64,000 bases of DNA, from the NCBI RefSeq assembly GCF_902729405.1, contig NZ_LR746496.1, forward strand, positions 1,426,001-1,490,000. The letters are read 5' to 3'. Positions 15,264-28,409 of this stretch are shown here, one piece after another (position 1 is the stretch's first letter; every line of letters begins with the position of its first letter). The translations under genes and the position numbers were made by a program. Source of the stretch: Acididesulfobacillus acetoxydans (GTDB lineage: Bacteria > Bacillota > Desulfitobacteriia > Desulfitobacteriales > Desulfitobacteriaceae). The notes under the pieces were generated by a model that saw nothing but the letters and a program-made list of their open reading frames with translations, searched no databases and was not told the DNA's origin.

Positions 15264-15736
15264 GAAATCATTCCTTTCCTTAATTGCGACAATGTGCGGG
15301 TGGCATGTTTTTGATCATAAGGTAACAGCTTGGAGTTTGCTGATAACAGGAGTTCGCCGTTTAAGTGCGGGATTCCTCTTTTAGCGGAGTTTTAGCGACA
15401 AATGGGTAGACTTTTGTCCGGAGTCAATGCGTGTCGCAGATGGCACTCCGAAGATCATTATATGCCGGGGAGAGGATAATTAATCTTGCCGGCCTGGAAA
15501 AAGGCGAACGCACCTGGTTAAAAGATGAAAAAGAGCTCAGGCAGAGAAAGCAAAGGGGTTCGGGCAGACAGGCACGGCAAGATTCCTTGCGCTAAGGGGT
15601 GTTTGCGGAATTTTCGCTCAGACGGTAGAATTCTGGGAGGTATTTGGTTAGAATGATAGGGAAAACCGTTATGTCATTACATTATCATTATCATTAGATT
15701 ATTATTACATTATAAGGAGAAATGAGGGCGAGAACG
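15264..15736. other. Intergenic region with AT-rich repeat before the hydrolase gene
   Basis: No gene is visible. An AT-rich tract at 15676-15713 contains TTATCATTATCATTA (15682-15696) and further ATTA repeats just before the ribosome site AAGGAG at 15714. The reverse complement GATAATGATAAT resembles two of the three hexamers of a Fur box, but this is only suggestive. Confidence 0.35.
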
Positions 15737-16495
15737 ATGTCTTTTGCCGAGGTGAGCGGTGAGCGGATCCATTATGAAGAAGCAGGCAAGGGGGCAGCGG
15801 GACAGCCGACCGTCCTCTTTGTGCACGGAGCGGGAGGAAGCTCAGGCACTTGGAAGAAACAACTGGCCGGACTCAGGGGCCGGCATCTCGTGGCCGTGGA
15901 TCTGCCCGGACATGGGGAATCCGGGGGTGAGCCCCAGGATGAGATCGCGGGCTACAGGGAGTTCGTCCGCTGCTTCGCTCAGGTTCTGGGCCTAAAGCGC
16001 TTTGTCCTGGCAGGGCATTCTATGGGCGGGGGGATTGCTTTGGATCTTGCTTTAACTTATCCCGAAACCCTGGCCGGAATCATCCTCGTGGGCAGCGGCG
16101 CCCGGTTAAAAGTGAGCCCGGCCATTTTAGAAGTCCTGGCCGAGGGGAAGCACCCGCTGGGGAGTGTCAAGTACATGTATGCCAGGAATGCGGACGAGAA
16201 GATTCTGGACGAGGCCAGGAAAGAGATGGAACAGGTCTCTGCGCAGGTGTTTGAGTCGGATTTCCAAGCCTGTAACCGCTTTGACGTTAGAGAGAGGGTC
16301 GCGTCGGTCGGGGTGCCGGCCCTCATCCTCTGCGGCGAAGACGACCTAATGACCCCGGTCAAGTTCTCCCGCTATCTCCGGGATAAGATGCTTTCGACGA
16401 CCTTGATTCTGGTCCCCGCGGCGGGACATATGGTCATGTCAGAACAGCCGCAAGCTGTTAACCGGTCCATTGAGGATTTTCTGGCGACACTTTGA
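15737..16495 (+). CDS. Alpha/beta hydrolase
   Basis: This 252-residue alpha/beta-hydrolase-fold protein carries an intact catalytic set: the oxyanion region FVHGAGGSSGTW, the nucleophile elbow GHSMGGG (about residue 95), the aspartate in LCGEDDLMTP and the histidine in PAAGHMVMSEQP. It is close in length and motif spacing to carboxylesterases and C-C hydrolases of the MenH/BioH type; the substrate cannot be inferred. The family start favours ATG 15737, although the in-frame ATG at 15722 is nearer the AAGGAG. It stands alone, with no operon partner. Confidence 0.82.
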   Translation: MSFAEVSGERIHYEEAGKGAAGQPTVLFVHGAGGSSGTWKKQLAGLRGRHLVAVDLPGHGESGGEPQDEIAGYREFVRCFAQVLGLKRFVLAGHSMGGGIALDLALTYPETLAGIILVGSGARLKVSPAILEVLAEGKHPLGSVKYMYARNADEKILDEARKEMEQVSAQVFESDFQACNRFDVRERVASVGVPALILCGEDDLMTPVKFSRYLRDKMLSTTLILVPAAGHMVMSEQPQAVNRSIEDFLATL

Positions 16496-16656: not shown

Positions 16657-17044
16657 TCAGCCGTCCGAATCCGGAGCCTGGGGTTCACTATCAGGTGACC
16701 CGTCCGTATGATGGACCACGGGGTACGGCACGTTACCCTTGGTCGCGGCCCACAGCATCTTATTGAATTGGGTATCATTGTTGGCGTCTTCCACATTCCA
16801 AATCATCTTATTGGCCACCGCCGCCATCGGGGCGTTTTGACCGTTTTTCGCGTTCACATTGTAGGTAGGCTGGACGACCTTGTACGGGGTGAAGTTCGGC
16901 TTAAAGGTGAAAGCATTCAGCATCGGGGTTGCTTCAGCATCGAATTGAGTCATGGGTTTCACTGTAGTTTGCCAACCAGTTTTTCTCGGTGTAATCGTTG
17001 GAAATGGCCGCAGTGGACCAGTTGTGTCCCTGGGCACTGGTTAA
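16657..17044 (-). pseudogene. YncE-type phosphoesterase remnant with internal deletion
   Basis: Two conserved parts of bifunctional YncE/alkaline-phosphatase-like (AcpA-type) phosphoesterases are joined in different frames. At 16975-17044, minus strand, SAQGHNWSTAAISNDYTEKN is the family's metal-site segment. From about 16960 down, KPMTQFDAEATPML, FTFKPNFTPYKVVQ and QFNKMLWAATKGNVPYP form the C-terminus. More than a hundred residues between them, and the whole N-terminus, are missing. The surviving text ends in a short acidic tail. It is a decayed gene, possibly once part of phosphate scavenging. Confidence 0.7.
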
Positions 17045-17124
17045 CTAATTGTTTCAACAGATATAAAACCATGTTAAAACGAATCCACCGCTTAAGCCGG
17101 CGGGTGCACAAAGTTGCTAACAAT

Positions 17125-17159
17125 AAACCGATGTGGCGCCTGGTTTGCCGCATCGGTTT
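17125..17159. repeat. 9-bp inverted repeat
   Basis: AAACCGATG (17125-17133) and CATCGGTTT (17151-17159) are perfect inverted copies around 17 bases, with TTGTTC downstream. It could be a weak terminator or the end of a decayed insertion sequence. The surrounding 17045-17393 holds no convincing gene. Confidence 0.4.
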
Positions 17160-17393
17160 GTTCATGAGTGCCCAGGGGCTGTCCTGTTTCGGTGGCAGTC
17201 GGGGGTGGGATAAGGACCGTTAACCTAAGTTTACAGACCTGTTGGCGCAATATTCAGGTATTTGCTCCGGCATGCACTTATAATATCTAGTGTGGATTAT
17301 AATCTTTTGATGACGTATACACCTCCTGCCGGCCGGCAGGGAAAGAAGTGTGAGCCGTTGGTTGAGGGACGTTCATCCGGGGGGTGGAAAAGG

Positions 17394-18962
17394 ATGCAAA
17401 CAACGGAAGATCCGAGCATTGCCGGGATTATCGGCGACAGTCCCCAGATTCTTGACCTAAAACAAGCGGTTCTGAAGGTTGCTCCACGTAATACGACCGT
17501 GCTGATCACAGGAGAGACTGGAACGGGGAAAGAGCTGTTTGCCCAAGCGCTGCATCAAGGCAGCTTGCGCCGTTTTAAGCCGTTTGTCCGGGTCAATTGC
17601 GCGGCGATTCCGGAGGCACTTTTGGAATCGGAGTTATTCGGCTATGCCGAGGGAACGTTTACCGGGGGCAAAAAGGGCGGCTACCTGGGAAAATTTGCGC
17701 TTGCGGACGGCGGCACGGTTTTCCTGGACGAAATGGCCGAACTGCCTTTGGCGCTTCAGGCTAAACTTTTGCGCTTCTTGGAAGAACATGAAATTCAACG
17801 CTTGGGGGAGAGTTTGCCCCGGAGAGTCAACGTGAGGGTGGTGGCGGCCACAAATGCCAATCTTGTGCAACTGGTCAAATACAAGAAGTTTCGCAGTGAC
17901 CTCTACTACCGCCTCAATGTTGTGACTTTGGAAATACCGCCCTTGCGCAGCCGGAGGGAAGACATTCCCGTCCTGACCCGAGCTTTTATGAAGCAGCTGA
18001 ACGCGGAGTACGATTATAGGGTTTACCGTCTGGACGCTGACATACAGCGAATTTTCGACAGCTATCACTGGCCGGGAAACGTACGCGAATTACGTAATAT
18101 TTTGGAAACGGCGTTCAACTTGCATGATGGGGGGCAAGAGCTGAACGTCGGACATTTACCCCCGTATTTGCGAAGATGGTTTCAGGAACAAACGGAGAGA
18201 GCAAAAACGGTGAGCCTGGCTTCGGGTGTTTCGACAGTCGGACAGGTTGAGGCGGACGCCGGAGGGGAGAGAAAGGAGGGGATGGACGAAACCGTTCGGC
18301 GGGAAGGCGAAGCGTGGAGAGGCGGGAAGGTCGGCCGCCGGCCCCGAGCAAGCCGGCGGCCGACGGCCAAAGAGGAAAAAGAAAGGGCTTTTTGGCGGCC
18401 TGAAGCGCAGGGGACGATTGAGGCAAGGGGTAGAACAAACGAGTCTGGAGAGGGAGCGAAGGAAGCAGGAAACAGGGCCATGGAAACAGGAGGCGAGGCA
18501 AAGGGGGCAGGGGCCACAGCTAAAGAAGCCGGGAGCGGGGCGAAGGAAGCAGAAGGCAGAGTGAGCGTAGAAGGGAAGAAGGTGAGGGAGGGGGCGGCCG
18601 GGACAAACGAAGAAGAAAGAAGGAACCGGGAAGACCGAACAGACAAAGAAGATAGAGCGGGCGAAGAATGGGGTAAAGCGAGCAAAGGAAGGGGCGGAAG
18701 GGACGAAGGAAGAACCGCAGGGGACAAAGGGAGAACCAGATCAGCCGAGGAATGGGACGGAGCGGGCGAGGCGATAACCTGGACAGAATGGGTAAATATG
18801 ATAGGCAGGCGGTCCCTGGCAGAGATTACCGATCTGTTTGAAGGAAAGCTTTTGCTCCATCTTTTGGGCAGTGGGCGTAACAGGACGGAGATGGCAGACC
18901 TGTTGGGGATCTCACGCCAGGCCCTATATAAGAAACTGCAAAAATACCACCCGGGAAAGTAG
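17394..18962 (+). CDS. Sigma-54-dependent transcriptional activator without sensor domain
   Basis: This 522-residue bacterial enhancer-binding protein starts almost directly with its AAA+ domain. Walker A is GETGTGKE (residues 40-47), the sigma-54 contact loop reads GTFTGG (87-92) instead of the usual GAFTGA, Walker B is GTVFLDEMAEL, and the arginine-finger/sensor region RSDLYYRLNVV and WPGNVREL are present. A roughly 195-residue low-complexity linker (about 265-462) rich in Gly, Glu, Arg, Lys and Ala separates it from a C-terminal Fis-type helix-turn-helix (NRTEMADLLGISRQALYKKL). ATG 17394 is preferred behind GGGGGGTGGAAAAGG; longer in-frame starts at 17262 and 17310 exist. Directly downstream lie a dyad, a -24/-12 promoter and the acyl-CoA genes, its likely target. 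Confidence 0.88.
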   Translation: MQTTEDPSIAGIIGDSPQILDLKQAVLKVAPRNTTVLITGETGTGKELFAQALHQGSLRRFKPFVRVNCAAIPEALLESELFGYAEGTFTGGKKGGYLGKFALADGGTVFLDEMAELPLALQAKLLRFLEEHEIQRLGESLPRRVNVRVVAATNANLVQLVKYKKFRSDLYYRLNVVTLEIPPLRSRREDIPVLTRAFMKQLNAEYDYRVYRLDADIQRIFDSYHWPGNVRELRNILETAFNLHDGGQELNVGHLPPYLRRWFQEQTERAKTVSLASGVSTVGQVEADAGGERKEGMDETVRREGEAWRGGKVGRRPRASRRPTAKEEKERAFWRPEAQGTIEARGRTNESGEGAKEAGNRAMETGGEAKGAGATAKEAGSGAKEAEGRVSVEGKKVREGAAGTNEEERRNREDRTDKEDRAGEEWGKASKGRGGRDEGRTAGDKGRTRSAEEWDGAGEAITWTEWVNMIGRRSLAEITDLFEGKLLLHLLGSGRNRTEMADLLGISRQALYKKLQKYHPGK

Positions 18963-19060
18963 TTCTCATAGATGTCTCAAGCCTCTCTGTCCCAGAGTTT
19001 GTCAACTTATATTTACGTTCCGGTTCCCAGAATTGTGTAAACTTTCCCCCACGTCGCAGT

Positions 19061-19088
19061 CCGGGTGTCAAACAAAGATGACACCCGG
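19061..19088. promoter_or_regulatory. 10-bp dyad, candidate enhancer site for the sigma-54 activator
   Basis: CCGGGTGTCA (19061-19070) and TGACACCCGG (19079-19088) are perfect inverted copies around an 8-base loop. The centre is about 170 bases upstream of the -24 box, a usual distance for an upstream activator sequence. There is no T tail, so a terminator for the activator gene is a weaker reading but cannot be excluded. Confidence 0.5.
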
Positions 19089-19242
19089 CTGAATGCCAGC
19101 CGAACTTTCTGGCACCTTCAGGGGTTCTTCCGGCCGCCCGCTTGGATTGCCCGAACTGTTGAAGGCGCGATAGTCACTATTCAGCGGCCGATCTTAACTT
19201 TTGGGGGTGAACGGCCGGGCGGAGCGCCTGGGGAACACATTG

Positions 19243-19259
19243 TTGGCCGGTAATTTGCT
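19243..19259 (+). promoter_or_regulatory. Sigma-54-type (-24/-12) promoter
   Basis: TTGGCCGG at 19243 and TTGCT at 19255 place the invariant GG (19245-19246) and GC (19257-19258) exactly 10 bases apart, as in TTGGCAC-N5-TTGCW. Two of the less conserved -24 positions differ from consensus. It lies between the sigma-54 activator gene and the acyl-CoA ligase gene and would give a leader of about 105 bases. Confidence 0.6.
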
Positions 19260-19374
19260 ATAAGGCGTAAGCAGGGAAAGAGTCAAGTGCGATTCCCTGG
19301 GGTTGTGCAGAATCTGCGGCCCCAAACCGGCAATGGCCTAGCGGTTCTTAAATAAATGTCAGAGGGGGGAGTTT

Positions 19375-21042
19375 ATGCCTAACGTATTGCACCAAACGAT
19401 CGGGGACCTGCTGGATGAGGTGAGCGAACGGTTGCCGGACAAAGAAGCTATGGTTTATGCGGATCGGCCTGTGCGCCTCAGCTACAAGCGGTTGAGAGAG
19501 GAAGCGGACCGGGTCGCCAAGGCCCTGATTGGCTTAGGGATCCGCAAGGGGGAATCGATTGCCCTCTGGGCCACCAATGTCCCCGAGTGGATACTTTTGC
19601 AAATGGGCAGTGCCAAAATGGGAGCTGTCCTGGTTACGGTGAATACCCAGTATAGGAGTACCGAACTGGAATATCTGCTGAAGCAGTCCGACAGTGCGGT
19701 TATTTTTCTGGTGGAGGGGGTGAAACAGACTCACTATGTCGAGATTTTAAGTTCCGTGCTGCCTGAATTCACGCGCCATCCCCAAGAACAGCCCTACACT
19801 TATCCCGCCTTGCCCAAACTCAGATACAGGATTCTGCTGGCGGATAAACAAGTTCCGGGTTTGCTGAATTGGCCGGAGTTCCTGGCTCACGGCGCCGGGG
19901 TAACGGACGAAGTACTGAAAGAGTATCAAGAGAATACCCGTCCCGAGGATGTCATCAATATCCAGTACACCTCGGGCACGACCGGTTTCCCCAAAGGGGT
20001 TATGCTCACACACTATAATATTGTCAACAATGCTAACGCGGTGGCCGACGCCATGAATCTGCGGGAAGAAGATCGTCTTTGTTTCCCGGTGCCGCTCTTC
20101 CATTGTTTCGGCTGTGTCATGTCATCTCTAGCCTGTGTGACCAAAGGAGCCACTATGGTTCCCGTGGAATACTTTGAACCCAACGCGGTTCTCAAAGCGG
20201 TGGAGCAAGAGGCTTGCACCGGTTTGCAGGGCGTACCTATGATGTTTATTTCCGAACTGGAGACGCTGAAAACCACCCCTTATGATATTGGGACTTTGCG
20301 CAAAGGAATCATGGCGGGGTCTCCCTGTCCGGTGGAAGTGATGAAACAAGTGATCGGGACGATGGGAATGGAGGAGGTGACCATTGCCTATGGGCAGACG
20401 GAGTCCTCACCGGTCATAACCCAAACCCGGATTGACGATCCTCTGGAACGTCGGGTAACGACGGTGGGTCGGAAGTTGGATGGGGTTGAGGTTAAGATCG
20501 TGGATCCGGCTACGGGAGAACCCGTACCCTATGGGCAGCAGGGCGAACTCTGTGCCCGAGGTTACAGCATTATGGCCGGTTACTACAATATGCCGGAAGC
20601 CACCGCCCAGGCCATTGACGCGGAGGGATGGCTGCACACGGGGGATCTGGCGGTTATGGATGAAGCCGGCTACTGTAACATCACCGGCCGCTTGAAAGAC
20701 ATGATCATCCGCGGCGGCGAGAACATTTATCCGCGCGAGATCGAAGAGTTTCTCTACCGTCATCCCAAGATCGCCGACGTTCAAGTCGTGGGGCTGCCGG
20801 ATATAAAGTATGGTGAGGAAGTCTGCGCCGTGATCCGCCTGCGCGAAGGGGAAACGGCCACGGCGGAAGAGATTCGGGACTTTTGCCGGGGGCACATTTC
20901 CAACCACAAGATTCCCCGCTACATTGATTTTGTGCAAGGATATCCGGCGACGGCCAGCGGCAAGATACAAAAATATCGCTTACGCGAGATCTATATTGAG
21001 AAATATAACCTGCAAGAGGCGGCCGCGGTCATCACAGCTTAA
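19375..21042 (+). CDS. AMP-forming acyl-CoA ligase
   Basis: This 555-residue member of the ANL superfamily activates a carboxylic acid to its CoA thioester via an acyl-adenylate. The phosphate-binding loop YTSGTTGFPKG (about residue 200), YGQTESSP, the hinge region WLHTGDLAVMDEAGYCNI and GRLKDMIIRGGENIYP, and the C-terminal catalytic lysine in TASGKIQKYRLRE are all present. It resembles medium/long-chain fatty-acyl-CoA and cyclohexanecarboxyl-type ligases; the true substrate is unknown. The start is ATG 19375 behind AGAGGGGGG. It is the first gene after the -24/-12 promoter and should supply substrate to the downstream thiolase-like protein and acyl-CoA dehydrogenase. Confidence 0.9.
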   Translation: MPNVLHQTIGDLLDEVSERLPDKEAMVYADRPVRLSYKRLREEADRVAKALIGLGIRKGESIALWATNVPEWILLQMGSAKMGAVLVTVNTQYRSTELEYLLKQSDSAVIFLVEGVKQTHYVEILSSVLPEFTRHPQEQPYTYPALPKLRYRILLADKQVPGLLNWPEFLAHGAGVTDEVLKEYQENTRPEDVINIQYTSGTTGFPKGVMLTHYNIVNNANAVADAMNLREEDRLCFPVPLFHCFGCVMSSLACVTKGATMVPVEYFEPNAVLKAVEQEACTGLQGVPMMFISELETLKTTPYDIGTLRKGIMAGSPCPVEVMKQVIGTMGMEEVTIAYGQTESSPVITQTRIDDPLERRVTTVGRKLDGVEVKIVDPATGEPVPYGQQGELCARGYSIMAGYYNMPEATAQAIDAEGWLHTGDLAVMDEAGYCNITGRLKDMIIRGGENIYPREIEEFLYRHPKIADVQVVGLPDIKYGEEVCAVIRLREGETATAEEIRDFCRGHISNHKIPRYIDFVQGYPATASGKIQKYRLREIYIEKYNLQEAAAVITA

Positions 21043-21260: not shown

Positions 21261-22517
21261 TTGAGACCAGTATATATGATTGCCGGGGGCATTACCAAGT
21301 TCGCCAAGGCATCCCCACGCAAAGATTTCCGTTATATGGTCAAAGAAGCCTTTGACCAAGCGATGGCCGATGTGCCCGGTCTGACCTTGGATATGATTGA
21401 CGGCTCGGTGGCGTCTTATTTTTCCGATCATTTTACACGGCAGCTGATGGCCGGGATCATGGTCCACGACTACTTGGGTCTGACGCCGAAACCTTCAAAA
21501 CGGATTGAATCCGGCGGTGCCACCGGGGGAATGTGCATCCAATCGGCCTGGGAGGCAGTGGCCAGCGGGCGGATGGATGTTTGTGCGGCCTTTGGCTTTG
21601 AGACCATGTCCCATGTCAACACTTGGAAAGGGAACGAATTCATTGCCCTTGCTTCCGATACCAACTTCGACTATCCGGTCGGAGGATTTTACACCGGGTA
21701 CTATGCCATGATGGTCAAACGGCACATGTATGAATTCGGCACGACAGAAGAGCAGCTGGCGGCTGTGTCTGTGAAGAATCATGCCAATGCCCTGCACAAT
21801 CCTTATGCCCAATTTCCGGCGGAACTCACCATTGAAGATGTGTTGAAGTCGGAGATGATTGCCGATCCATTAAAACGCCTGGATATCTGTGTCATGTCAG
21901 ATGGGGCTGCGGCGGTCATTCTGGCCTCTGAGGAGATGGCCCGGAAACTCACGGACAAACCGGTGCGGATCAGCGGAGTCGGTACTGGGACTGATGCCAT
22001 GCGCATGGCTGATCGTCCCTCCCGTGAGGTCATTCTCCTTCCGCACGAGAACGCGGCCGACTATAAGGGTCTGAAATATCCCGGGGTCCACTCTTTCCGG
22101 GGCGGCCGGACGGCGGCTAAGGAGGCTTACAAGATGGCCGGTATCACCAATCCTCTGGAAGAACTCGACTTCGTCGAACTGCATGACGCGTTTACCTCTT
22201 CCGAAATCCAGACCTATGAGGACTTGGGCCTGTGCAAATATGGTGAAGGGGGTAAGTTCGTCGAGTCCGGTGCGGCCGGCCTGGGAGGAAAAGTCCCGGT
22301 CAATCCTTCCGGCGGGCTCCTGGCCTGCGGACATCCGGTCGGCGCGACCGGCTTGATGCAAGGAGTCTTTGCTTTGTGGCAGTTGCAAGGCACCATCGGT
22401 CAGCATTTCAACGGGGATGACACCCTCCAGATTAAGAACGCCAAACGGGGGCTCATTCACAGTCATGCCGGCACCGGGACCTATATTACTGTAAGCGTGA
22501 TGGAGAGGGGGTTCTAA
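21261..22517 (+). CDS. Thiolase-superfamily protein lacking the nucleophilic cysteine
   Basis: This 418-residue SCP-x-type thiolase homologue starts at TTG 21261, 8 bases after GGAGG. Against SCP-x thiolases (motif NNNCATGS) the segment reads ESGGATGG, so the position of the acyl-carrying cysteine is Gly86. The other catalytic landmarks remain: His308 in ELHDAF, and His358 in NPSGGLLACGHPVGATG. The last active-site loop reads LIHSHAGTGTY instead of HNLGIGG. It is followed three bases later by a DUF35 gene, the usual partner in archaeal-type thiolases, BbsAB and the Ltp2 aldolase. With no Cys nucleophile, ordinary thiolysis seems unlikely. A retro-aldol or other C-C cleavage/condensation is a reasonable guess, or Cys92 nearby could act instead. 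Confidence 0.85.
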   Translation: MRPVYMIAGGITKFAKASPRKDFRYMVKEAFDQAMADVPGLTLDMIDGSVASYFSDHFTRQLMAGIMVHDYLGLTPKPSKRIESGGATGGMCIQSAWEAVASGRMDVCAAFGFETMSHVNTWKGNEFIALASDTNFDYPVGGFYTGYYAMMVKRHMYEFGTTEEQLAAVSVKNHANALHNPYAQFPAELTIEDVLKSEMIADPLKRLDICVMSDGAAAVILASEEMARKLTDKPVRISGVGTGTDAMRMADRPSREVILLPHENAADYKGLKYPGVHSFRGGRTAAKEAYKMAGITNPLEELDFVELHDAFTSSEIQTYEDLGLCKYGEGGKFVESGAAGLGGKVPVNPSGGLLACGHPVGATGLMQGVFALWQLQGTIGQHFNGDDTLQIKNAKRGLIHSHAGTGTYITVSVMERGF

Positions 22518-22520
22518 AGC

Positions 22521-23030
22521 ATGAGTGCGGAACAACGGACGAACTCGGCGGGCAAAGTGAAACTGGAAGAACAGGAGATAGGGGCGGTTCTTTACAACGT
22601 GGATCCCATCATAATGAAGTACCACTACGAGATTGACTACATGCACAGTTATGCCCAAGATTCGCCCTTCTTTGAGGGCTTGAGCAAAGGAGAACTTTGG
22701 GGGAGCAAGTGCCCGGTTTGCGGCAGTACCTTTGGCACCCCGCGCGGCCATTGCATGAATTGCGGAGCTAAGACGGAATGGATGCAACTTCCGTTGGAAG
22801 CAAAGATCCACACTTATACCACCTGCTATTTCGGCAGTCAGGAATTTCTGGCGGAGACTCCTTTTACTTTGATCCTGGTCGAATGGCCGAATGTGGATAC
22901 TTTTTTCCTTTCCCGTTTGTTGGGGGTGGCCCCGGACGAGGTTAAAATTGGTATGCCGGTGAGGGCCAAGTTCAGACGCCTGAGCCAGTTCAAACCGACG
23001 GATGTCTATTTTGTTCCGGAAGAGAGTTAA
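22521..23030 (+). CDS. DUF35 zinc-ribbon/OB-fold partner protein
   Basis: This 169-residue protein has an N-terminal helical stretch (about residues 1-50), a rubredoxin-like zinc ribbon with four cysteines (CPVCG...CMNCG, about residues 67-87) and an OB-fold (GIH-like KIHTYTTCYFGS through VRAKFRRLS). DUF35 proteins form stable complexes with thiolase-superfamily enzymes and help bind the CoA ester. The gene starts three bases after the stop of the thiolase-like gene, which argues for a complex. A Phe/Tyr-rich segment precedes the ribbon (YMHSYAQDSPFFEGLSKGEL), as in partners of acyl-CoA thiolases and the ChsH2 DUF35 domain. Confidence 0.88.
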   Translation: MSAEQRTNSAGKVKLEEQEIGAVLYNVDPIIMKYHYEIDYMHSYAQDSPFFEGLSKGELWGSKCPVCGSTFGTPRGHCMNCGAKTEWMQLPLEAKIHTYTTCYFGSQEFLAETPFTLILVEWPNVDTFFLSRLLGVAPDEVKIGMPVRAKFRRLSQFKPTDVYFVPEES

Positions 23031-23140: not shown

Positions 23141-24283
23141 ATGTTGGATTTAACGGCCGAACAAAAAGCCCTCCAAGACATGGTACATTCCTTCGCTCAG
23201 GAAGTCATCGCTCCGGGAGCGGCCCAACGCGATAAAACGGGAGAGTTTCCCTTGTCCATCGTAAAGCAGATGGGGGAATTGGGGCTTCTGGGGCTTCCCT
23301 TTGCGGAGGAATTCGGTGGGACGGGCGGGGATTATGTTTCTTACGCGATTGCCGTGGAAGAGATCACCCGGGCTTGTGCCTCCACGGGTATCACTTATGC
23401 GGCCGACCTTTCCCTCGGGATCAGTCCCATTTATCTCTTCGGTACGGCGGAGCAAAAAGAAAGGTACCTTCCCTCCCTCTTTCGCGGGGATTACTTGGCG
23501 GCTTTCGGGCTGACGGAGCCGGAGGCCGGCTCGGATGCCGGCGGCACCCGGACCCGGGCTGTGCGCGGAGAGAACGGTTGGGTGCTGAACGGTTCCAAGT
23601 GTTTTATTACCAATGCCGGCTACGCCGGGGTGGTGACCGCCACCGCGGTTACGGCTCCCGAGCGCGGCACCCGGGGAATCAGCGCTTTCCTGATCGAACC
23701 GGGAACCCGGGGTTTTCAGGTCAATTCTTCTTACGAAAAACTGGGTCTCCATGCCTCCAATACGACCGAACTCGTCTTTGACGAGGCGAATATTCCCCTG
23801 GGGAATCTTTTGGGGAAGGAAGAAAATGTAGGTTTCAAGCAGTTCCTGCAAATTCTGGATAGGGGAAGAATCAGCATTGGAGCTATGGGAGTGGGTTTGG
23901 CCCAGGCCTCCCTGGATGCAGCCCTGGCCTATGCCAAGGTGCGCAAGCAATTCGGCCAGCTCTTGAGTTCCTTTCAGGCCATTCAGTTTAAACTGGCGGA
24001 TATGGCGACCCATGTGCAGCTTTCCCGGCTGGCGGTTTGGAATGCAGCCCGTTTAAAAGACGCGGGTAAGCCTTTTACCCAGGCTGCGGCTATGGCCAAA
24101 CTCCATGCCTCGGAAACCGCCGTCAAGTGTGCCCTGGAGGCTATCCAAATCCACGGAGGGTACGGCTACATGCGGGAATACCCGGTGGAACGCTATCTGA
24201 GAGATGCCAAGCTCCTGGAGATCGGGGAAGGGACTTCGGAGATCCAGCGCCTGGTGATCGCCCGTTCTTTGGGGTGTGCCTGA
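23141..24283 (+). CDS. Acyl-CoA dehydrogenase
   Basis: This 380-residue FAD enzyme introduces an alpha,beta double bond into an acyl-CoA. The family signatures [15 protein letters not shown] (about residue 120) and [22 protein letters not shown] are present, as is the segment [15 protein letters not shown]; the catalytic glutamate is expected in GEGTSE. The start is ATG 23141 behind GGAGGAGGGG. It is the last gene of the acyl-CoA module. Its electrons would normally go to an electron-transfer flavoprotein, which is not encoded in the window. The stop codon region is tandemly repeated three times. Confidence 0.92.
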
Positions 24284-27623: not shown

Positions 27624-28409
27624 TCATTGCGCATCTTTGAAGCGAACCATCGGACATTTCTTACAGACGTCCAGCCCCGGCCATTCCGTCCCGGTGTACG
27701 GGAAGGAGGCTCCGTCAGACACTTCAGTGCGGTAGGCCAGCTGCCGGGCCACGTCCAGGATCTGGTCACCCGGTATGAAGACGTTGACCTCCCCCTTCTC
27801 GGTTTTGCCGGAGGTATAACTGCCCGAGCACATGGTGCTCATGTTAGGCTTGTGGTTCAGGTAACTCCAGACGGCGCCTCCACAGACCGCTGAGTTCACG
27901 GTGTGATTGAATTGAAGGGGATGAACTTTGAAAGCGCCGATGAAATCATTCAGGATGTGGTAAGCCTGCAGGGGGTTGCAGACGAACATGACCACGTCGG
28001 GATCCACCGGCGTTTTGGCGAGCGGAGCAGTCATGAATACTTTCAACTCCCCCAGGGGCAGGCGAGGCTTGGTGGCTAAGACCTGTTTGGCAAGTTCCAT
28101 ATCCGCCACATACTTAAAATGCCCTTTGGCTTCTTCATCGGACGGGGCGGTATAGCCGAAACTGGTCAGGCAGTTTTCACATAAAATATTATCATTCGTT
28201 CCTTTGAGGACATAGTTGGCCATGCGGGTAGCCGCCGTAAATTGGCAGAAGGTGAGTTTCGCGGCCGCCCTCTTCTCAGCCGGGTATTTTGCCGCTTCTT
28301 CCGCAGACTTAAAGAACTTTATGGCTACCGGGTGATAATCGAGTTTTAAGAGGCGTTCAAACAGTTCCTGAGCGTCAGCATAGGTCGTGATGGATTTCGG
28401 ATCAACCAA
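27624..28409 (-). CDS. DUF169 family protein
   Basis: This 261-residue cytoplasmic protein belongs to DUF169, a family of unknown function common in anaerobes. It has a conserved basic/aromatic core (YHPVAIKFFKSAEEAAKYP) and several cysteines in pairs or conserved spots: FCQF, LCENCLTSFGY, AVCGGAVWSY, STMCSGSY, and the C-terminal VCKKCPMVRF. These suggest metal or iron-sulfur binding. The start is TTG 28409 behind GAGGAG. It is the distal gene of a minus-strand operon with a TSUP exporter and a small membrane protein, so a role in sulfur-compound handling is possible but unproven. Confidence 0.82.
   Translation of the reverse strand: MVDPKSITTYADAQELFERLLKLDYHPVAIKFFKSAEEAAKYPAEKRAAAKLTFCQFTAATRMANYVLKGTNDNILCENCLTSFGYTAPSDEEAKGHFKYVADMELAKQVLATKPRLPLGELKVFMTAPLAKTPVDPDVVMFVCNPLQAYHILNDFIGAFKVHPLQFNHTVNSAVCGGAVWSYLNHKPNMSTMCSGSYTSGKTEKGEVNVFIPGDQILDVARQLAYRTEVSDGASFPYTGTEWPGLDVCKKCPMVRFKDAQ

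Follow-up and report, generated by a model that had tools for sequence, protein, structure and literature searches.

A predicted sigma-54 cassette with a sensorless activator upstream of an acyl-CoA operon in Acididesulfobacillus acetoxydans

The window analysed here, a stretch of 64,000 nucleotides from the Acididesulfobacillus acetoxydans genome (a single 4.52-Mb contig), carries on its plus strand the gene for a sigma-54 activator, or enhancer-binding protein (EBP), of 522 residues (17394..18962). Its stop codon at 18962 is separated by a gap of 412 bp from the start at 19375 of a same-strand run of four genes that we predict to form an acyl-CoA operon. The first of these encodes an acyl-CoA ligase of the AMP-binding type (19375..21042; PF00501, PF13193), whose best NCBIfam model, NF009233, scores just below its cut-off (805.7 against 832 bits). 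It is followed on the same strand by a thiolase-family protein (21261..22517; PF22691 and PF00108, with NF004982 above cut-off), a ChsH2-type OB-fold/zinc-ribbon partner (22521..23030; PF01796, PF12172) and, as the last gene of the run, an acyl-CoA dehydrogenase (23141..24283; PF00441, PF02771, PF02770). Beyond the operon lie a DUF169 protein on the minus strand (27624-28409) and a convergent ABC transporter pair.

The gap between activator and operon holds the two elements that the first-pass annotation had placed there, a perfect dyad and a -24/-12 promoter. The dyad (19061..19088, no strand assigned) pairs CCGGGTGTCA (19061-19070) with TGACACCCGG (19079-19088) across the 8-nt loop AACAAAGA, giving 10+10 bp with arms that are 100% complementary, and its core, GTGTCA-N8-TGACAC at 19065-19084, has the form TGT-N12-ACA and is the predicted enhancer site. 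The predicted sigma-54 promoter, TTGGCCGG-TAAT-TTGCT on the plus strand (19243..19259), sets the GG of its -24 half (19245-19246) and the GC of its -12 half (19257-19258) exactly 10 bases apart within TGGC...TTGCW (19244-19259), the spacing of a -24/-12 element. From the dyad centre at 19074.5 to the GG at 19245 is about 170 bp, as had been claimed, and the end of the core lies 159 bp before the start of the -24 element. All figures given in the first-pass annotation hold.

When the 412-bp gap was shuffled 1000 times with dinucleotides preserved, 6 shuffles gained a perfect arm of 10 and 2 a strict -24/-12. In its native form, TGGCCGGTAATTTGCT at 19244-19259 is the sole match to TGGCN2GN4TTGCW in the window (0.30 expected). 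Genome-wide, GTGTNA-N8-TNACAC matches once, at the dyad, its backwards-pattern control giving three matches. In the whole genome we count 61 strict -24/-12 sites (34 + 27), as against 9 (6 + 3) when the pattern is reversed, so that most such sites are probably real. The genome also has one rpoN match (PF04552, 203 bits), and of its 50 matches to the sigma-54 activator family we judge 38 to be full or nearly full length. For 13 of these 38 a strict -24/-12 lies no more than 4 kb away; random placement gives 3.9, with a maximum over 2000 trials that was also 13. By these counts the cassette is one of many such in the genome. The -24 half of the promoter reads CCG after TGG where the consensus has CACG, which counts against our reading. 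Because the dyad and the -24/-12 element are each unusual against shuffles but not decisive alone, comparison with relatives must decide.

The comparison drew on a search of 100 relatives for the ligase gene and of 84,980 genomes for the thiolase, where the best 80 of 235 loci were kept; activator genes beside these operons were located by tblastn. The nearest named relative in the thiolase search is Peptococcaceae bacterium CEB3, described as a close relative of A. acetoxydans INE (PMC8982180). With CEB3 (also G001) and BP4 (also G045) each counted once, four relatives have the same activator, their AAA+ parts being 95% (CEB3), 84% (G003), 83% (G011) and 74% (BP4) identical to that of the window. 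All four have a -24/-12 element between the activator and ligase genes with exact GG-N10-GC (TGGCCGGCGATTTGCT, TGGCGAGGGTTTTGCT twice, and TGGCAGGCAATTTGCT); together with the window's element these score 10-11 of 12, and the N4 spacer varies. The conserved place of the element and the presence of rpoN bear out the earlier assignment of the promoter to sigma-54, and rpoN was likewise found in 9 of 9 relatives tested, including G254, G325, G348, G412 and G014, to which we return below. Canonical -24/-12 elements, for example TGGCACTAATATTGCT, also stand at four Desulfosporosinus-type loci that have a different, PAS-bearing activator (about 43-46% identical); thus, sigma-54 control of such acyl-CoA operons appears wider than one activator.

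The activator itself combines a sigma-54 interaction AAA+ domain with Walker motifs and a Fis-type HTH, the make-up of a bacterial EBP. Its Pfam matches are PF00158 (residues 12-179, 220 bits), PF25601 (185-268) and PF02954 (482-518, 32 bits); Pfam recognizes only AAA+, lid and HTH_8, with no N-terminal sensor domain. We set the start at the ATG at 17394 because MQT(T/I)EDPSIA is common to five orthologues. Between AAA+ and HTH, the plus-strand stretch 18180..18773 encodes a low-complexity linker of 198 residues, rich in E/G/A/R/K (76% purine on the coding strand) and with KEAG/AKEA-like repeats; CEB3 has a linker of comparable length and those of G003, G011 and BP4 are much shorter, so that the long form may be a recent expansion. 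The loop that contacts sigma-54 (codons within 17480-17700) reads GTFTGG in place of GAFTGA, keeping the F, the T and the first two G while changing both A. An alignment of the five orthologues gives GTFTGG in the window, CEB3 and G003, GSFSGG in G011 and GTFTGA in BP4. At 30 other activator loci of the same genome we count 23 GAFTGA, 2 GSFTGA, 1 GAFSGA and 4 without a match to the expression, a tally in which up to two rows may be double-counted neighbouring activators. Judged from these sequences, the loop has departed throughout this lineage from a motif that hardly varies elsewhere.

This deviant loop counts against our reading, as most changes to the GAFTGA motif are harmful or abolish activation, while some changes in NorR are reported to release the protein from its repressing domain with activation retained (PMC7175178, PMC2941729); GTFTGG is not among the variants named in the passage of PMC6615313 compared here. 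An activator with a GTFTGG or GSFSGG loop could, then, have ceased to work with sigma-54, leaving the -24/-12 element fortuitous or inactive and the operon to a sigma-A promoter; in favour of this there is one sigma-70-type match in 17000-19460, weak, on the opposite strand and at chance expectation. Yet each of the five loci that carry the activator retains the -24/-12, although its N4 spacer varies, and BP4, of the same clade, has GTFTGA. Nor did a promoter scan reveal a good sigma-A promoter in the activator–ligase gap. We regard a fortuitous or inactive -24/-12, with sigma-A control of the operon, as very improbable.

The dyad changes among relatives in a manner that separates its core from its outer pairs. 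In CEB3 the core is intact (GTGTCA-AAGAAAAA-TGACAC) and the outer CCGG pairs are lost; in G003 and G011 both arms have changed with symmetry preserved (GTGTAA-ACAAAAGA-TTACAC); and in BP4 the site reads GTGTTA-AGTTTAG-TAACAA, with N7 and 9 of 10 matches. A wider activator search, covering 398 genomes of the phylum and 73 of the order, added G325, with a 14-bp perfect dyad around GTGTTA-AGTTTGT-TAACAC, and G348, which retains GTGTTA-AGTTTGG-TAACAC and has no outer pairs; these two activators are homologues from another family, and they too precede acyl-CoA dehydrogenase genes. This pattern bears on a rival reading in which the dyad serves, as an RNA hairpin, to end transcription of the activator gene or of an antisense RNA, and only the -24/-12 is regulatory. 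As RNA the dyad does fold well, at -23.2 kcal/mol, a stability equalled by 0 of 200 shuffles. A T-run follows the stem on neither strand, however, so that the dyad does not have the form of an intrinsic terminator despite its hairpin. A terminator scan made no plus-strand call at the dyad, and its minus-strand calls nearby use other stems at a frequency not above that in shuffles. In CEB3, moreover, the fold falls to -13.7 kcal/mol, matched by 26 of 200 shuffles, and G003 has a separate T-run hairpin, CCCCACACGGGGGATTTTTTT, downstream of the dyad. The core half-sites are kept while the outer pairs are lost in CEB3 and G348, which points to a protein site of TGT-N11/12-ACA form, and not a hairpin, as the conserved unit; that the dyad acts only as a terminator is thus very improbable.

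If the dyad is a protein site, the protein that binds it might be another regulator, such as a repressor, the neighbouring activator acting elsewhere and the sigma-54 promoter being real nonetheless. Many kinds of regulator bind dyads. We applied one common scan (spacer 7 or 8, threshold of at least 9 of 10 matches) to 14 loci. L046, whose gap contains an N run, was left out, as was the downstream one of the L037 activators, whose next gene is not an operon homologue; in L034-L036 and L041-L043 either no activator match precedes the thiolase or the locus stops short. The site was found in 9 of 10 gaps behind the window's activator clade, the exception, G254, scoring 8 of 10. Of the 4 gaps that follow the PAS-type Desulfosporosinus activator, which sits at the corresponding acyl-CoA operon, none had it, and the best score there, 7 of 10, was reached by 391-431 of 500 shuffles. 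Full 10-of-10 sites occur in six genomes of three genera. The recognition-helix region follows the same division, with ISR(Q/P)(A/G)LYKK common to the clade and DISTLLRKCKK in the other, PAS-type activators. The pattern GTGTNA-N8-TNACAC has 1, 2 and 3 genomic matches in G001, G003 and G011, one in each lying in the homologous gap, while across 61 genomes searched it occurs at chance-like rates and is found in 33.

Site and promoter are not always found together, which leaves some room for a different regulator. In the gaps of G254, G325, G348, G412 and G014 no convincing -24/-12 was detected, the best GG-N10-GC scores of 0-8 of 12 being no better than those of shuffles, yet four of the five have the predicted enhancer site at 9 of 10 or better. 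Either the promoter lies elsewhere or is degenerate in these genomes, or the site serves another promoter, and on sequence the full pair of site and promoter is seen only in the closer clade of five. Still, that the site tracks the activator clade and fits the TGT-N10-12-ACA class tells against another binding protein, a reading we think very improbable; with a core kept through two-sided changes, the dyad's proposed role as the activator's enhancer is supported.

Taken together, we favour a single-operon sigma-54 cassette made up of the activator (17394-18962), its site (19065-19084), the promoter (19243-19259) and the four-gene operon, and assign this reading a probability of roughly 0.88. 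What we observe is where site and promoter lie, their sequence and their conservation, together with the domain make-up of the activator and the presence of rpoN; for binding, looping, remodelling, start point and co-transcription we reason from established knowledge of the family. A dimer of the activator's Fis-type HTH would bind GTGTCA-N8-TGACAC (19065-19084), perhaps assisted by two weaker upstream sites. Looping of the DNA would bring the AAA+ hexamer to sigma-54 RNA polymerase waiting at 19243-19259, which the hexamer would remodel, opening it at the expense of ATP. A transcript from near 19270 would then carry the genes for the ligase, thiolase, OB-fold protein and acyl-CoA dehydrogenase. 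The weaker candidates on the plus strand are TTGTCAACTTATATTTACGT (18999..19018; 7 of 10 matches, as at the same place in CEB3, one base different) and GTGTAAACTTTCCCCCACGT (19035..19054), which likewise has 7 of 10 and aligns in CEB3 with GTGTAAACCTTTCTTCACAT, at 9 of 10. Windows scoring 7 of 10 or better number 4 in the gap, against 0.87 expected by chance, which is no more than suggestive of additional enhancer sites at 18999 and 19035. The predicted plus-strand leader (19270..19374), its start placed from the position of the -12 element, was also considered as a riboswitch or structured leader; its fold is no better than that of shuffles (z = 0.55). Rfam gave no match at the gathering threshold in the whole window and, in 18900-19460, nothing beyond a chance-level match. 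Within the interval between enhancer and promoter, 19143-19243 (GTTGAAGGCG...TATTCAG...GATCTTAACTTTT...GAACGGCCGGGCGGAGCGC) is strongly conserved between the window and CEB3, above its flanks, and could possibly bind a DNA-bending protein or a second regulator.

The cassette resembles the sigma-54 regulons described for Clostridiales. There, the EBP gene adjoins one target operon and 65% of 263 EBPs control a single operon, with upstream activating sequences of the form TGT-N10-12-ACA located 100-250 bp upstream of the promoter and with variants of GAFTGA tolerated (Nie et al. 2019, PMC6615313). The dyad, as TGT-N12-ACA lying 159 bp upstream of the -24 element, fits this class in form and spacing, and the likeness extends to an EBP gene beside one predicted target operon. 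Among the Clostridiales EBPs an N-terminal sensor is the rule, with 11 of 490 lacking an N-terminal domain (PMC6615313); the window's activator differs in having no recognizable sensor. The main text of that paper names no matching group under acyl-CoA, fatty acid or Desulfosporosinus; likewise, a literature search by name, covering passages of that text, found no published regulon for the acyl-CoA operon genes.

Among sensorless EBPs, PspF is alike in combining AAA+ and Fis HTH without an N-terminal regulatory domain, but the window's activator differs in its operon, its long linker and its GTFTGG loop, and it scores 250.3 bits against the cut-off of 443.55 for the PspF equivalog TIGR02974 (NCBIfam). 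It shares the AAA+ domain with one-component or response-regulator EBPs of the PrdR and AtoC type as well. PrdR is its best NCBIfam match at 328 bits, far below the cut-off of 795, and unlike PrdR it has no sensor or receiver domain. PspF has an inhibitor, PspA. With no recognizable sensor in the window's activator, our guess is that operon expression would depend on how much activator is present, or on an unlinked inhibitor of that kind, and not on ligand sensing by the activator itself. For the same reason, to call the cassette complete and self-contained, as the first-pass annotation did, is too strong; what the comparison upholds is site and promoter. A conserved upstream partner replacing the sensor was also considered; for the alpha/beta hydrolase gene at 15722-16495 no counterpart was detected near the activator in CEB3 or BP4, and the ORFs upstream of the activator in these two have nothing obvious in common.

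A tree of 58 rows joins the clade of five (100/96) to a group with G254, G412, G325 and G348, whose activators are 60-62% identical to the window's and each stand directly before an acyl-CoA dehydrogenase gene, followed in G254 and G412 by the same kind of ligase; the activator of G084, 56% identical, is not beside acyl-CoA genes. By Pfam, the G254 and G412 activators have PAS-type matches of modest score, and those of G325 and G348 have none. In the next sister group, PAS domains are present in the one member scanned (G014), and nearly all others have N-terminal parts of similar length. The short N-termini of rows own_L158 and own_L161, neighbouring activators cut by the locus edge, are for that reason uninformative. 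This distribution is most simply explained if the sensor was lost twice. We tentatively propose, as a scenario with rather less than an even chance, that target and DNA site were kept through both losses of the PAS sensor, and that in the window's lineage the loss came with the GTFTGG loop and, for one genus, with a linker some 200 residues long. Control would in that case lie in the amount of activator or in a partner, and the changed loop might tune the output of an activator that is otherwise always on.

To our knowledge, there has been little direct work on gene control in acidophilic sulfate reducers, and our analysis offers a precise, testable assignment of activator, site and promoter for an acyl-CoA operon in an apparent member of that group. 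On the sequence comparison, the cassette is an evolutionarily conserved gene switch of well-known type, predicted to turn on acyl-CoA genes of fatty-acid type, with one unusual trait, an activator without a recognizable sensor. What makes it of interest is chiefly the loss of the sensor together with the altered loop, and not the cassette itself. An activator that has no sensor and departs from GAFTGA, with PAS-bearing kin to compare it with, offers a natural way to ask what a sensor and a strict GAFTGA are needed for.

Several further observations concern neighbouring or related loci. Upstream of the activator gene, 17215-17305 is nearly identical in CEB3 and contains TATAAT without a good -35 element; with the weak half-symmetric CCGTTA-N8-TTACAG at 17217 it is possibly the activator's own regulated promoter. 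Identical in CEB3 and with 7 of 10 matches, that element is too weakly matched to be called a second enhancer site. At L172 (3576-3608) and L173 (3649-3667), GTGTTA-N7-TAACAC stands behind sensorless activators in gaps with no recognizable -24/-12; TGGCAG is retained at similar places in both, and the -12 GC is lost in one. Finally, in the Desulfosporosinus-type genomes at L037 and L038, two paralogous PAS-type activators lie around the same acyl-CoA gene group.
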